Below the pieces are notes generated by a model. The model worked only from the letters and a program-made list of their open reading frames with translations, had not been told where the DNA came from and made no database searches. Source: Ruminococcus sp. (GTDB lineage Bacteria > Bacillota > Clostridia > Oscillospirales > Ruminococcaceae). From it: a stretch of DNA of 64,000 nt. The translations under genes were made by a program, and so were the position numbers. The stretch is from the NCBI RefSeq assembly GCF_024691275.1, contig NZ_JAILNU010000030.1:1-64000 (forward strand), in the 5' to 3' direction. How positions within the stretch are numbered: position 1 is the stretch's first letter; each line of letters begins with the position of its first letter. Of the stretch, positions 22,129-27,958 are shown piece after piece.

Positions 22129-23052
22129 TCATGTAGAAGGTTCTTCTTCGGTGGGATCGAGGAGAATATTCTCATCGGGAATATCCTCGGCAGCCGAAGT
22201 GAAGTCGTAATCTGTGAATTTATCCACTTTTTTCAGCTTTATGACAAGACCTGCCTCGTCGTCGATAATGAGTGAGTCCCCGTCGTGCTTGATAACGAAT
22301 CCTTCGTAGTCGCTCCACATATAGAGCTGTTCCTTTTTCTCGGGTTCCCATTCGTAGTCCTGAGGTTCGCCGAACACGTTCATAGTTGAAGTGCGGTCGT
22401 TTTTGAGCTCAAGGCAGAACGAGACATTTACAGGGTAAACTCCCAGAGTATCGGTATAGGTTACGCCGTCGGAGGTCACTTCATAGGACTCCCACTTGCC
22501 CATGAATTTGCTGAAATCAGCCTTATCGAGCCCTGCCTCTGTAGTTTTTTGCGGAGTTGAGAACTCTGACTGCGGCGTGAGGAATATCTGGGTATCCTCG
22601 TCGATATCGGCGTATGTCATTACCATTTGTCCGCGTTCGAGAATGCAGTCATACGGGTCATCGGGGTTGCGCAGGTGCAGTGTATCCACGCCGTCCTCGT
22701 TGGTGATATCCCACGTATAGTCGTAAGAATGTTCCTTGCCGTGGGGGTTCAGTGCAACTATCATAGTTGCGGTATGGTCATCGAATATTTCTACCTTTGC
22801 AACTGCACTGAGCGGGTAGCCTGCATATTCAGTCTCGTACTCCTTGCCGAAGACGATGGCTTTGTAAGCCTCCCACTTTCCAAGGAAATGCTTGCCTGAG
22901 TTATCGGCTTGCGTAGTAGGTTCGGGGGGAGCCGAAGTAGTTGTATTGACTGTAGTATTTTCGGGCTTTTTAGTGTTTTTCTTGGTGTTGCAGCCTGACA
23001 GGCAGCTTGTTAAGATAGCAGCCGCCGTACAAAAAGTAAATAATTTTCTCAT
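22129..23052 (-). CDS. Lipoprotein with two GKWE-type (lipocalin-like) repeats
   Basis: LTSCLSGCN lipobox; two domains beginning LGKWEAYKA and MGKWESYEV; ends LKKVDKFT. Confidence 0.7.
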   Translation of the reverse strand: MRKLFTFCTAAAILTSCLSGCNTKKNTKKPENTTVNTTTSAPPEPTTQADNSGKHFLGKWEAYKAIVFGKEYETEYAGYPLSAVAKVEIFDDHTATMIVALNPHGKEHSYDYTWDITNEDGVDTLHLRNPDDPYDCILERGQMVMTYADIDEDTQIFLTPQSEFSTPQKTTEAGLDKADFSKFMGKWESYEVTSDGVTYTDTLGVYPVNVSFCLELKNDRTSTMNVFGEPQDYEWEPEKKEQLYMWSDYEGFVIKHDGDSLIIDDEAGLVIKLKKVDKFTDYDFTSAAEDIPDENILLDPTEEEPST

Positions 23053-23065
23053 AACCGCTCCTTAA

Positions 23066-23548
23066 TCAGTTATTGATGCCGAAGTTTTGTATAGCGCTTG
23101 CGGCACTGTTGAGCAAAGCAGGGTCTATCTGTGTAAATTCATCGACTTTTTTGAGGTATATTGCAGAGCCGCCCTCCTCGATGACCAGCATATCATCGCG
23201 GTAATTGAGGTTCATGGTCTGGGTAGCTTCCTTGCCTGAAATGTCAGTGACTTTGAATTCTATCCTGTTTTTCTCTGTTTCTTTCCATGTAATGTCCATG
23301 TTTGATTTTGCGTTCTGAATGATATTGTTATCGACAGCCGAACGCCATTTGACTTTGCCGTCGTCCGTTACTTCAAATCTGAAAAGGGCAGACAGCGGCA
23401 CGCCCATTACCGCAGTTGAGCTTTCGCCGCCCAGGTTCATGCTGTCGGCTTCCCATTTTCCGATATACTTAGGATCGCGCTTGCCGCAGCCGACGATGCA
23501 CAAAGTCAGCATAACAGCTGCGATCATAAGTGAAAGTATCCTTCTCAT
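23066..23548 (-). CDS. Single-domain GKWE (lipocalin-like) lipoprotein
   Basis: LTLCIVGCGK lipobox; IGKWEADSMNLGGESSTAVMGVPLSALFRFEV; YLKKVDEFT. Confidence 0.7.
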   Translation of the reverse strand: MRRILSLMIAAVMLTLCIVGCGKRDPKYIGKWEADSMNLGGESSTAVMGVPLSALFRFEVTDDGKVKWRSAVDNNIIQNAKSNMDITWKETEKNRIEFKVTDISGKEATQTMNLNYRDDMLVIEEGGSAIYLKKVDEFTQIDPALLNSAASAIQNFGINN

Positions 23549-23563
23549 TTAGTTATCTCCTTT

Positions 23564-24004
23564 TTATTCTGCTTTTTCGGTAAACGCAGCTACTTTGACG
23601 ATATGGGTCTCGCGCTTGCCGTTCACGTATACCAGATCACAGCCGATGAAATCGTAGCTTTCGGTGAGTTCTCCCATATCCTCGTACAGTATCTTAACGC
23701 CGCCGAGTGGGGTGATCGTCCATCTTATGGTCTGTTTATTACCGTTGGCATCGTAATAAAGACCCGTTCCGTTTTCGTCGAAAAGGTATCTTTTGTAAAC
23801 TTTTTCGATCTCGTTCCCGTCGAGCATTTCGTAGGAAGTTTCCCATTTTCCTGTGACTTCCTCGATTATCTCGTCGGTGGATTTATTGCTGAATGCTTCG
23901 GCGGAGGCTTTTACACCGCTGTTTGAAACGGGGTGGCTTCCGCATGAGGCGGAACAGCACAGCAGAGCAGCAGCTGCTGCGGTGATGCAAATAAGCTTTT
24001 TCAT
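23564..24004 (-). CDS. Single-domain GKWE-type lipoprotein
   Basis: MKKLICITAAAAALLCCSASCGS; VTGKWETSYEMLDG; the ORF-track start is too far upstream. Confidence 0.7.
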   Translation of the reverse strand: MKKLICITAAAAALLCCSASCGSHPVSNSGVKASAEAFSNKSTDEIIEEVTGKWETSYEMLDGNEIEKVYKRYLFDENGTGLYYDANGNKQTIRWTITPLGGVKILYEDMGELTESYDFIGCDLVYVNGKRETHIVKVAAFTEKAE

Positions 24005-24171
24005 AATGTCTGTCTCCCTTCGGTATAAAGGTATTATACCGCATAAAACGCTGTATGTAAAGTATTTTTTGAGAAAAATGGCTGTAACAGTAAGTGTTCC
24101 GTAATATTTTATCAAAAAGCAATGCTGTATGCAGGGACGGCAGCTCATACGCTCTCTTATTCCCAATCAAA

Positions 24172-24237: not shown

Positions 24238-26184
24238 TTATTTTACTTTCTTTGCGATATCGTCAAGAAGCTTGCCGATGAGGTCGTTCTGGCTCATAGA
24301 ACCAAGATCGCCTTCACGTCTTGAAGATACTGAAACAGTACCGCTCTCGACTTCCTTATCACCGACAGTTACCCATACAGGGAGCTTTTCAAGTCGTGCG
24401 TCACGAACCTTCTTGCCCACCTTTTCAGCTCTGTCGTCGATAGCTGCACGGATACCTGCTGCGTCAAGCTTAGCAAGAAGCTCGTTGCAGTAGTCAAGGT
24501 GACGGTCTGCAACAGGAACGATACGTACCTGCTCGGGAGCGATCCAGAGAGGAAGTGCGCCTGCATACTTCTCGATGAGGTATGCGAGAGTTCTCTCGTA
24601 GCAGCCCAGTGATGTTCTGTGAATGATGTAAGGAGTTTTCTTTGAACCGTCAACGTCAACGTACTCCATACCGAAACGCTGTGCGAGGAGCATATCTATC
24701 TGGATAGTAACGATAGTATCTTCCTTGCCGTAAACGTTCTTGTACTGGATATCCAGCTTAGGACCGTAGAATGCAGCCTCGTCGATACCGATAGTGTACT
24801 TTACTCCAAGGTGATCGAGGATCTTGCCCATTACTGCCTGAGCTTCGTCCCACTGTTCCTTAGTGCCCTCGTACTTGTTCTTCGGGTTTGCGGGATCCCA
24901 CTGTGAGAAGCGGAAAGTGCAGTCCTCGAGCATACCGACTGTTTCGAGCATATACTTAGCAAGCTCCAGACAGCCCTTGAACTCTTCTTCGAGCTGCTCG
25001 GGGCGGAGAATAAGGTGTCCTTCGGAGATAGTGAACTGACGAACACGGATAAGACCGTGCATCTCGCCTGAATCCTCCTTACGGAACAGAGTTGAAGTCT
25101 CGCCCAGACGCATAGGAAGATCACGGTAAGAACGCTGTCTGTTGAGGAATACCTGATACTGGAAAGGACAAGTCATAGGACGGAGAGCGAAACATTCCTT
25201 CTCCTCGTCGTATGGATCGCCCATAACGAACATACCGTCGAGGTAGTGATCCCAGTGACCTGATATCTTGAAGAATTCTCTCTTAGCGAATAAAGGTGTC
25301 TTTGTGAGGAGATAGCCGCGCTTCTGCTCAACGTCCTCAACCCAGCGCTGGAGGAGCTGAACGACTCTTGCGCCCTTTGGAAGAAGTACAGGGAGACCCT
25401 GACCGATAACGTCAACAGTTGTGAAGTACTCCAGCTCACGTCCGAGCTTGTTGTGGTCGCGGAGCTTAGCTTCCTCACGCTGTTTGAGGTCAGCTTCGAG
25501 GTCAGCAGCCTTCGGATAAGCTGTAGCGTAAACACGGCTGAGCATCTTGTTCTTCTCGCTGCCGCGCCAGTAAGCACCTGTACATGAGATGAGCTTGAAT
25601 GCCTTTACGGGAGCAGTTGTCATAAGGTGAGGGCCTGCGCAGAGGTCGATGAACTCGCCCTGCTTGTAGAACGAGATAGGCTCGCCCTTGTCAGCGTGTT
25701 CCTCGCAGAGCTCTACCTTGTAAGGTTCGTCCATTTCCTTGAGCTTAGCGATAGCGTCAGCAGGAGAGAGCTCGAACTTTTCAAGCTCGATGCCTTCCTT
25801 GACGATCTTCTTCATTTCAGCCTCGATCTTTTCGAGCTCCTCGGGAGTGAAAGGCTTTTCGAGGTCAAAGTCGTAGTAGAAGCCATTGTCGATAGCAGGG
25901 CCGATAGCAAGTTTAGCAGCAGGGTAAAGTCTCTTTACAGCCTGTGCAAGGATATGTGAAGCTGTGTGCCAGAAGGTCTTCTTACCGTCGATAGAATCGA
26001 AAGTGCATACCTCGAACTGACAGTCGCTGTCGATAACAGTGCGGAGGTCTTTTACCTCTCCGTTGACTTTTACGCAGCAGGCAGCCTTGTAAAGTCCCAT
26101 ACCAATACCCTTGATGATCTCTGCGGCTGACTGAGCAGACTCGATCTCACGAACGCTGCCGTCAGGTAATGTTAATTTAATCAT
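24238..26184 (-). CDS. thrS: Threonyl-tRNA synthetase
   Basis: TGS domain, FWHTASHILAQAVKRLYP, GPAIDNGFYYDFD, RPMTCPFQYQVF, RMEYVDVDGSKKTPYIIHRTSLGCYER. Confidence 0.97.
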   Translation of the reverse strand: MIKLTLPDGSVREIESAQSAAEIIKGIGMGLYKAACCVKVNGEVKDLRTVIDSDCQFEVCTFDSIDGKKTFWHTASHILAQAVKRLYPAAKLAIGPAIDNGFYYDFDLEKPFTPEELEKIEAEMKKIVKEGIELEKFELSPADAIAKLKEMDEPYKVELCEEHADKGEPISFYKQGEFIDLCAGPHLMTTAPVKAFKLISCTGAYWRGSEKNKMLSRVYATAYPKAADLEADLKQREEAKLRDHNKLGRELEYFTTVDVIGQGLPVLLPKGARVVQLLQRWVEDVEQKRGYLLTKTPLFAKREFFKISGHWDHYLDGMFVMGDPYDEEKECFALRPMTCPFQYQVFLNRQRSYRDLPMRLGETSTLFRKEDSGEMHGLIRVRQFTISEGHLILRPEQLEEEFKGCLELAKYMLETVGMLEDCTFRFSQWDPANPKNKYEGTKEQWDEAQAVMGKILDHLGVKYTIGIDEAAFYGPKLDIQYKNVYGKEDTIVTIQIDMLLAQRFGMEYVDVDGSKKTPYIIHRTSLGCYERTLAYLIEKYAGALPLWIAPEQVRIVPVADRHLDYCNELLAKLDAAGIRAAIDDRAEKVGKKVRDARLEKLPVWVTVGDKEVESGTVSVSSRREGDLGSMSQNDLIGKLLDDIAKKVK

Positions 26185-26261
26185 AATGATCTCTCCTTTT
26201 TATTGATTCATAATTCATAATGCTTAATGCATAATTATTGTTTTGCATATGCGATGATATA

Positions 26262-26786
26262 CTATTCCTTGCAGAATAATTCATCGTTTTCCCAATTTAA
26301 AGGATTGTTTTCAATGTAATCCCAAATCGCGGCTAATTCCTTGTCATTGCGTATTATATGATCGTAATAATTTCGCTGCCAAGGTGAAAATCCCGATTCT
26401 TTGGTTACAAGGATTTTAAACGAACGTATCAGTTTAGGTAACGATCGTGTAGGGGGCGATGCCCACATCGCCCCGTTATTGGGTACATAATTATTTTCGA
26501 TTCTCAAAATAATATGAATGTGATCCGGCATTATCACATATTTTATTATTCCATTTATACTTACAATATATTTCCGAACAATTTGCCCGATTTCCGATAA
26601 TTCGTACGGTAATGATGTTGAAATATCATTTATTGGCGGGGCGATGTGGGCATCGCCCCCTACAGGTTTACTGTAATCCCAAAAATAATGCTGTTTATTA
26701 TGTGTACATATCGTTACGAAATACGCGCCGTTACGAGAATAATCGTATCCCGACAATCTGTGTTCTTTTCTTATTGGTCTGTCCAT
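26262..26786 (-). CDS. REP-associated tyrosine transposase (RAYT / Y1-Tnp, IS200-like)
   Basis: GAYFVTICTHN, YVIMPDHIHIIL (HUH-type HxH), SPWQRNYYDHIIR (catalytic Tyr region); start overlaps upstream stop as TAATG. Confidence 0.9.
   Translation of the reverse strand: MDRPIRKEHRLSGYDYSRNGAYFVTICTHNKQHYFWDYSKPVGGDAHIAPPINDISTSLPYELSEIGQIVRKYIVSINGIIKYVIMPDHIHIILRIENNYVPNNGAMWASPPTRSLPKLIRSFKILVTKESGFSPWQRNYYDHIIRNDKELAAIWDYIENNPLNWENDELFCKE
26449..26474 (+). repeat. GTAG-headed hairpin inside the RAYT CDS, copy 1
   Basis: GTAGGGGGCGATGCCCACATCGCCCC; exact reverse complement of 26638-26663. Confidence 0.9.
26638..26663 (-). repeat. GTAG-headed hairpin inside the RAYT CDS, copy 2 (inverted)
   Basis: GGGGCGATGTGGGCATCGCCCCCTAC. 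Confidence 0.9.
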
Positions 26787-27166
26787 TATTCGACCCAGCC
26801 GGTTATTTCAAATATATCCGCAAAAAGCTCGATATGGGCATCTCCTTTCATAAATCCGTCCGAAGTACCTGTATCGAAGCAGACAACGATATCCTCGCCG
26901 TCCATATCCACGTATACATTTGACAGCTTCAATATCTTAGCGAGAGCCTCTGCATCGCTGCCCTCATAAAAACCGTCGTCGATAAGTATACCTGCAACGG
27001 TACTCTTGCTGCTGTCGAGTTTAGCGAGCTTCTTTGCAATAACGGAGAGGTTCTTCATGATAGTATCCTCGCTCTCGGTATAAAACCGAACGGTAAGCTC
27101 CTCGTTCCATATTTTATACGGCAGCTCATAGGCTTCTTCACGCTCGTTGTACTTTATATTGCTCAA
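26786..27166 (-). CDS. Conserved-looking hypothetical protein, 126 aa
   Basis: Intact ORF in the operon, translationally coupled (TAATG) to the RAYT. Confidence 0.7.
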   Translation of the reverse strand: MSNIKYNEREEAYELPYKIWNEELTVRFYTESEDTIMKNLSVIAKKLAKLDSSKSTVAGILIDDGFYEGSDAEALAKILKLSNVYVDMDGEDIVVCFDTGTSDGFMKGDAHIELFADIFEITGWVE

Positions 27167-27201
27167 ACACTCACCTCCCTGCTTTTAAAAAGTCATATCT
27201 A

Positions 27202-27513
27202 TCAATAGAATTCGCCTTCGTCGCCCTGCATGACAGCTCCGAGAGCTTCGGCGAGAGGACGTAATATTTCGTCAACATCATCGTTGCGGCAGGCAACATC
27301 TATCATACCGTCATCGAGCATAAATATTGCATCACCATAGGAATACATATTATCCATATCCGTACTGAGCGTAAGACCTGTTCGGGGATCTGTTATCGGC
27401 GGCTGACTGAATTCCGAAACGCCGTCAACTGCGAGCAGTTCTTCGGGAGTTATCGGATCGTCTGCGCCGTCAGTCCATTCTGTACCTCTGAAAATATGCA
27501 ATGTGTAAGCCAT
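27202..27513 (-). CDS. Hypothetical protein, 103 aa
   Basis: AGGAGG-like RBS upstream of ATG 27513; IFRGTEWTDGADDPITPEEL...LAEALGAVMQGDEGEFY. Confidence 0.75.
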   Translation of the reverse strand: MAYTLHIFRGTEWTDGADDPITPEELLAVDGVSEFSQPPITDPRTGLTLSTDMDNMYSYGDAIFMLDDGMIDVACRNDDVDEILRPLAEALGAVMQGDEGEFY

Positions 27514-27530
27514 GATTTCCTCCTGAAAAC

Positions 27531-27775
27531 AAAAAAACCCTTATGCCTATAATTAGACACAAGGGACGATAGACTACCGTGGTTCCACCCTGATTCACAC
27601 GGAGTTTTCTCCGTATCTCAAGTGCTCTGTAACGGGAGCTCCCGACGCTTATTGGGCGCACTCAGAGGCGGTATGCCAGAACCCTGAACGCTGCTGCCTC
27701 GCACCGAATGGCAGCTCTCTGTGAACGTTACTGTCGGGAAAAAGCCTTCCTCATCGACGTTTTTGGAATATTGTA
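27531..27775 (-). promoter_or_regulatory. T-box leader with intrinsic terminator; specifier possibly ACC (Thr)
   Basis: Minus strand: CGATGAGGAAGG, AGAGAGCTGCC..GGTGCGAGGCAGCAG stem I features, GGCATACCGCCTCTGAG putative specifier region, AGGGTGGAACCACGGTA T-box, terminator CCCTTGTGTCTAATTATAGGCATAAGGGTTTTTTT. Confidence 0.93.
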
Positions 27776-27958
27776 CAATTATCTTAACACATATTCAGCG
27801 GTTTGTCAAGGGGGTATGACATAAAAGACAAAAAATTCCTTTTGCCGCTGTGAAAATCAACAGTTTGTTTAATAAACGTGAAAAACCACAATTTGACGGG
27901 TTGAAATCTATTTAAAAATGTGATATAATGTTATAAATATAGAGAGGAACTAACAGCT

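Follow-up and report, generated by a model that had tools for sequence, protein, structure and literature searches.

The thrS gene of a Ruminococcus flavefaciens-group genome most likely remains under the control of its ancestral T-box, as the last of four genes on a single threonine-responsive mRNA. In the window, by which we mean the whole 64,000-nucleotide stretch analyzed, the genes follow each other on the minus strand in the order T-box, P103, P126, RAYT (REP-associated tyrosine transposase), and thrS, with about 1.35 kb between the T-box and thrS. We assign a probability of about 0.77 to the explanation as a whole, namely a thrS operon under one threonine T-box into which P126, the RAYT, and P103 entered separately.

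In the mechanism that we propose, transcription would start upstream of the single threonine-specific T-box. Uncharged tRNA(Thr) would bind the specifier ACC by its anticodon and the UGGA bulge by its 3' UCCA end, so that the terminator would not be formed and the polymerase would run on through P103, P126, RAYT, and thrS as one mRNA. As to its history, the T-box and thrS would have come first, P126 would have entered in the genus and P103 sporadically, and the RAYT would have entered once beside thrS, usually just behind P126, to be decayed or lost later in many lineages. Co-transcription, induction by threonine limitation, and activity of the RAYT protein are what we infer from sequence. The features are collected in Table 1.

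Table 1. Features of the thrS operon in the window
Feature	Position	Strand	Basis or remark
Promoter-like TTGACA-17-TAAGAT, directly 5' of the leader	27781..27809	-	10/12 consensus positions; fits leader start; sequence only
T-box leader, specifier ACC (Thr), antiterminator bulge UGGA	27559..27766	-	RF00230, 80.2 bits; conserved in relatives; covariation
T-box intrinsic terminator, then T7	27538..27565	-	Folding; stem kept with changes in relatives
P103, 103-aa protein of unknown family	27202..27513	-	Between T-box and P126; sporadic in genus
P126, 126-aa orphan, TTG start	26786..27166	-	Kept between T-box and thrS in Ruminococcus
RAYT, intact	26262..26786	-	Pfam Y1_Tnp; HxH and Tyr conserved
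REP 1, GTAG-tagged palindrome, GTAGGGGGCGATGCCCACATCGCCCC	26638..26663	-	In RAYT reading frame; 0 expected by chance
REP 2, inverted, ends CTAC	26449..26474	-	In RAYT reading frame
thrS, threonine--tRNA ligase; TGS, SAD editing, catalytic, and anticodon-binding domains	24238..26184	-	TIGR00418, 591 bits

The T-box leader and transcription of thrS

The T-box belongs to a set of 11 in this genome. A covariance model search matched RF00230 over its full length (model positions 1-219, E 5e-16), and leader and terminator together span 27538-27766(-). Because the score lies below the Rfam gathering score of 93, as do those of five other T-boxes of the genome, a gathering-threshold Rfam scan missed the element. 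The terminator stem (27565-27538) has 12 pairs and a folding energy of -16.9 kcal/mol (z -7.6 against shuffles), and in an RNAalifold consensus of 27 sequences 24 of 51 pairs show two-sided compensatory changes. An earlier note on this DNA had described a full minus-strand T-box with terminator, and both the covariance match and the stem bear it out.

The specifier was read by position, in the form XXX-R followed by a 4-nt strand complementary to the 5' base of stem I. In the window ACC precedes CCUC, which pairs with GAGG, giving threonine. The same rule returned the correct amino acid at other T-boxes of the genome (GUA before valS, GCU before alaS, UGG before trpB and trpE, UGC before cysS, and CUC before leuA), where the downstream genes were named by us from their own sequence. 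ACC is invariant among the T-boxes of 27 aligned relatives and a simple pattern recovered it at 100 or more of the 107 same-genus loci, the other seven not having been inspected singly, while the UGGA antiterminator bulge is present in all 107. What had been offered as a putative threonine specifier thus holds. The UGGA bulge calls for a tRNA ending in UCCA, which presumably suits tRNA(Thr); no tRNA(Thr) gene was found by pattern search or in the loci scanned, so the match to the discriminator U is judged from UGGA by itself. Elsewhere in the genome, the Cys T-box (G000:C97:72467-72669) likewise does not adjoin cysS, an ORF of about 150 aa lying between them, and Ile (AUC) and Tyr (UAC) T-boxes (G000:C79:19490-19735 and G000:C67:22534-22750) precede no obvious synthetases; behind them lie a gene whose product has an XRE-like N-terminus and ORFs of membrane-like character.

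The one-strand gene order and the distance of thrS from the T-box noted earlier are confirmed by the coordinates, and the impression that nothing terminator-like lies directly upstream of thrS also stands, no minus-strand intrinsic terminator having been found in the window between 27538 and thrS. The RAYT start codon overlaps the P126 stop by 1 nt (TAATG). In RAYTs linked to thrS in other genomes, the RAYT start mostly overlaps the P126 stop or lies 1-2 nt from it, often as TGA-N-ATG, and this spacing suggests translational coupling.

An alternative to control by the T-box, to which we give roughly one chance in eight, is that thrS is driven mainly by its own promoter within or after the RAYT and that the T-box governs the small genes only. 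A promoter-like TTGGCA-18-TATAAT does lie in the 3' part of the RAYT at 26382-26353, matching 11 of 12 consensus positions 170 nt before thrS, and the 77-nt gap that precedes thrS is AT-rich. However, this site coincides with codons of the conserved motif WQRNYYDHII and only the RAYTs of genomes G117 and G031 preserve it, and the decayed RAYTs of G087, G043, G047, and G045 retain only the part after it. Moreover, thrS mostly begins 14-75 nt past the end of P126 in RAYT-less genomes. Single promoter-like sites mean little here, because these 4 kb contain 13 where 6.4 would be expected. The related suggestion of the earlier note, in which thrS is served by a promoter of its own and a cassette captured the T-box, consequently finds little support, given the 14-75 nt spacing, the lack of a terminator, and the unconserved promoter site. 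Since the promoter-like site lies within the RAYT, thrS could nonetheless receive extra basal transcription in addition to that from the T-box.

Two observations concern thrS and its downstream side. Within the genus, ThrRS is a domain chimera: residues 1 to about 225 (TGS and editing) are about 90% identical throughout, and the catalytic and anticodon-binding part occurs in two types that are about 30-35% identical. The window type is nearest to Staphylococcus aureus ThrRS among solved structures, and the second type, found in G117 and in cultured R. flavefaciens strains, is nearest to the E. coli/Salmonella/human type. Downstream of thrS, 22129-24166(-) holds three consecutive putative lipoproteins that share a G-K-W-E motif after the lipobox.

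Distribution of the intervening genes

We found thrS in 119 of 120 same-genus genomes, and the upstream DNA of about 110 was classified by script; most of the loci come from metagenome-assembled genomes (MAGs). A T-box core of the window type precedes thrS at 107 loci. Between the two, P126 is present at 89 of the 107 and P103 at nine. Immediately ahead of thrS, 27 loci have an intact RAYT and about 15 a decayed one, intact being assigned by script from frame length and coverage; at least two of the copies so classed (G044 and G018) have an internal stop or frame break. P126 alone is found at 50 loci, with an intact RAYT at 19, and with a decayed one at 11. Twelve loci hold none of the three genes in recognizable form, four a RAYT alone, and two a decayed RAYT alone, and the loci with P103 divide into P103-P126-RAYT (four), P103-P126 (three), and P103-P126-decayed RAYT (two).

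At eight of the 12 loci that lack all three genes, thrS lies about 90-115 nt from the T-box and at one 164 nt from it; in the remaining three (G083, G046, and G029) the distance is 437-726 nt, occupied by other sequence or by an unrelated ORF. Among T-boxes from other genera of the family, five are separated from thrS by 104-297 nt that contain no ORF of at least 60 aa, and two further ones have unrelated genes before thrS. None of these seven outgroup loci contains P126. Apparent RAYT matches at the start of outgroup thrS genes were rejected as an artefact of one query, from G094, whose frame runs into thrS. The comparison of thrS loci across relatives, which the earlier note had pointed to, did turn up directly adjacent T-boxes, and since most of the other genera and about nine Ruminococcus loci have the T-box directly on thrS, the census indicates that this was the ancestral unit. 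As P103, P126, and the RAYT are found in nearly all combinations, it likewise indicates that they arrived separately rather than as one cassette. About 60% of the T-box loci have no trace of a RAYT, so the RAYT is dispensable. Genomes without P126 may reflect its loss or a later gain, both of which are compatible with the census.

Both small proteins are well predicted by AF2, P126 as an alpha/beta fold (pLDDT 96) and P103 with pLDDT 84, and neither has a fold neighbor in the PDB below E 0.2. Scanning 84,980 species yielded 97 P126 relatives, of which the best 80 all come from Ruminococcus or from MAGs that are unnamed or apparently misnamed. A phage or defence origin was considered for both and set aside, with no match at E <0.01 in PHROGs, PADLOC, or Pfam; nor was P103 matched in phages. 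The dN/dS values are 0.05-0.12 for P126 and 0.07-0.18 for P103; for the RAYT they are 0.11-0.24 in nine of ten pairs, one recent pair giving 0.52. These values indicate purifying selection on P126 and the RAYT. From the operon context we infer that the role of P126 and P103 may be tied to threonine charging.

Origin of the RAYT and its internal repeats

The window RAYT scores 26.6 bits with Pfam Y1_Tnp, above the cut-off of 23, and 60.8 bits (E 1e-16) with NCBIfam REP_Tyr_transpos, under the cut-off of 80; it is clearly related to REP_Tyr_transpos but outside that equivalog model. HxH and one C-terminal Tyr column are at least 95% conserved in the 27 linked RAYTs, and we take this tyrosine to be the catalytic one by analogy with the E. 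coli protein.

In a maximum likelihood tree, 47 full-length RAYTs from the genus are split by a 100/100 branch into 27 linked and 20 unlinked ones, and the linked state changes once on the tree, compared to a mean of 15.3 changes in shuffles. Because the linked RAYTs form one clade apart from the 20 unlinked ones, a single entry next to thrS, followed by decay, loss, and allele exchange, fits the data. That RAYTs instead inserted here repeatedly and independently, the site being a preferred target, might explain their occurrence at the same position in many species and the alleles, with as little as 44% identity, that closely related genomes carry at one locus, but the full-length linked RAYTs all lie on one side of that branch and no flanking REP was found at the locus, and we consider this improbable. 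Many R. flavefaciens genomes (G049, G104, G018, G034, G071, G087, G047, G081, and G043) also carry an unlinked RAYT at a second locus, some 40-50 kb away from thrS, and the unlinked RAYTs form a separate clade.

Allele exchange is best seen between the window genome (G000) and its close relative G094, the R. flavefaciens MAG RUG12542. Their thrS products are 99% identical and the DNA of the locus is mostly 90-100% identical, whereas the RAYT segment has only 40-68% identity, with sharp borders, and the P103 segment 74-79% between flanks of 91-99%. The window RAYT is 86% identical to that of G117, though the ThrRS of G117 is far more different. The RAYT thus appears to have been replaced by another allele in at least one case, and recombination between conserved flanks would account for the exchanged segments, with the caveat that a MAG may be chimeric. 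In G094 the RAYT lacks a stop and continues in frame into thrS, giving an 841-aa open frame that could encode a RAYT-ThrRS fusion or be a simple read-through frame.

The earlier note had proposed that a three-gene cassette split the T-box from thrS; the outgroup arrangement upholds the split, but the uneven occurrence of the genes over the 107 loci and their nearly free combination do not favor one cassette. Indeed, a single mobile cassette inserted between T-box and thrS is very improbable, since the three genes stand together in four genomes (G000, G094, G049, and G104) but P126 alone is the commonest arrangement, a RAYT occurs without P126 in four, and P103 and RAYT were exchanged between G000 and G094 as separate segments.

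The two REPs of the window RAYT form an inverted in-frame pair, one before the HuH motif and the other between HuH and Tyr. No REP flanking the RAYT was found in the window or between T-box and thrS, the two internal ones being the only copies. Many linked RAYTs carry a REP pair at the same two places with other sequences, of the GGACGGCC, GGGCGCACA, GGGCGAAC, and GGGCGGCG types, and in several (for example, those of G049, G071, and G008) the search at the stringency used showed none. Counted over whole genomes, the GTAGGGGGCGATG core has six copies in the window genome, 56 in G117, and none in G030, where no RAYT was found; its reversed control gave no copy in any genome counted. A strict pairing of REP type with RAYT type was not borne out, the correspondence being only loose, and REP families are common to the clade whatever RAYT type a genome carries.

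Relation to known systems and significance

The leader resembles those of T-box/synthetase operons (RF00230) in being a complete element with a threonine specifier, UGGA bulge, and terminator upstream of thrS, but differs in that Ruminococcus-specific orphans and a RAYT come first and thrS last. Genes of unknown function behind T-boxes and next to synthetases, one of them 'Thr-tRNA ligase related', have been reported (PMC2494555). Our literature search found no paper on a T-box that precedes or controls a transposase. The RAYT shares with TnpA-REP/RAYT subclass 2.4 (Bertels group 4; PMC6006769) the HuH and Tyr motifs, GTAG palindromes in frame within the gene, which are a hallmark of that subclass (PMC6006769), and REP copies elsewhere in the genome; this is a likeness by features. 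It differs in being closely coupled in an essential T-box operon and in having an inverted REP pair inside and no flanking REP. REPtrons, in which REPs flank a RAYT (PMC3733652), likewise combine a RAYT with GTAG repeats, but here the repeats lie inside the gene and not around it. T-box and RAYT are both of known kinds; the combination of a resident RAYT under T-box control with a genus-specific orphan whose fold is unmatched is new to us.

The operon would place a transposase and a genus-specific orphan under control of tRNA(Thr) charging. We tentatively suggest, as a speculation that could well prove wrong, that starvation switches on REP mobilization or a RAYT function useful to the host, and that the RAYT is sheltered by its coupling to an essential synthetase gene. 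The locus bears on the questions of what allows RAYTs to persist and when they are expressed: one RAYT locus is common to many species, its transcription should follow a well-understood and experimentally controllable RNA switch, and natural intact, decayed, and empty RAYT alleles are available for comparison in cultured R. flavefaciens strains. Of these strains, YL228 (G117) and 007c (G071) have an intact RAYT, FD-1 (G044) has one with a single stop, and ND2009 (G047) retains a short remnant. The operon also provides a physiological setting for the orphan P126, namely threonine charging, and suggests that control of thrS by a T-box can survive an insert exceeding 1 kb.
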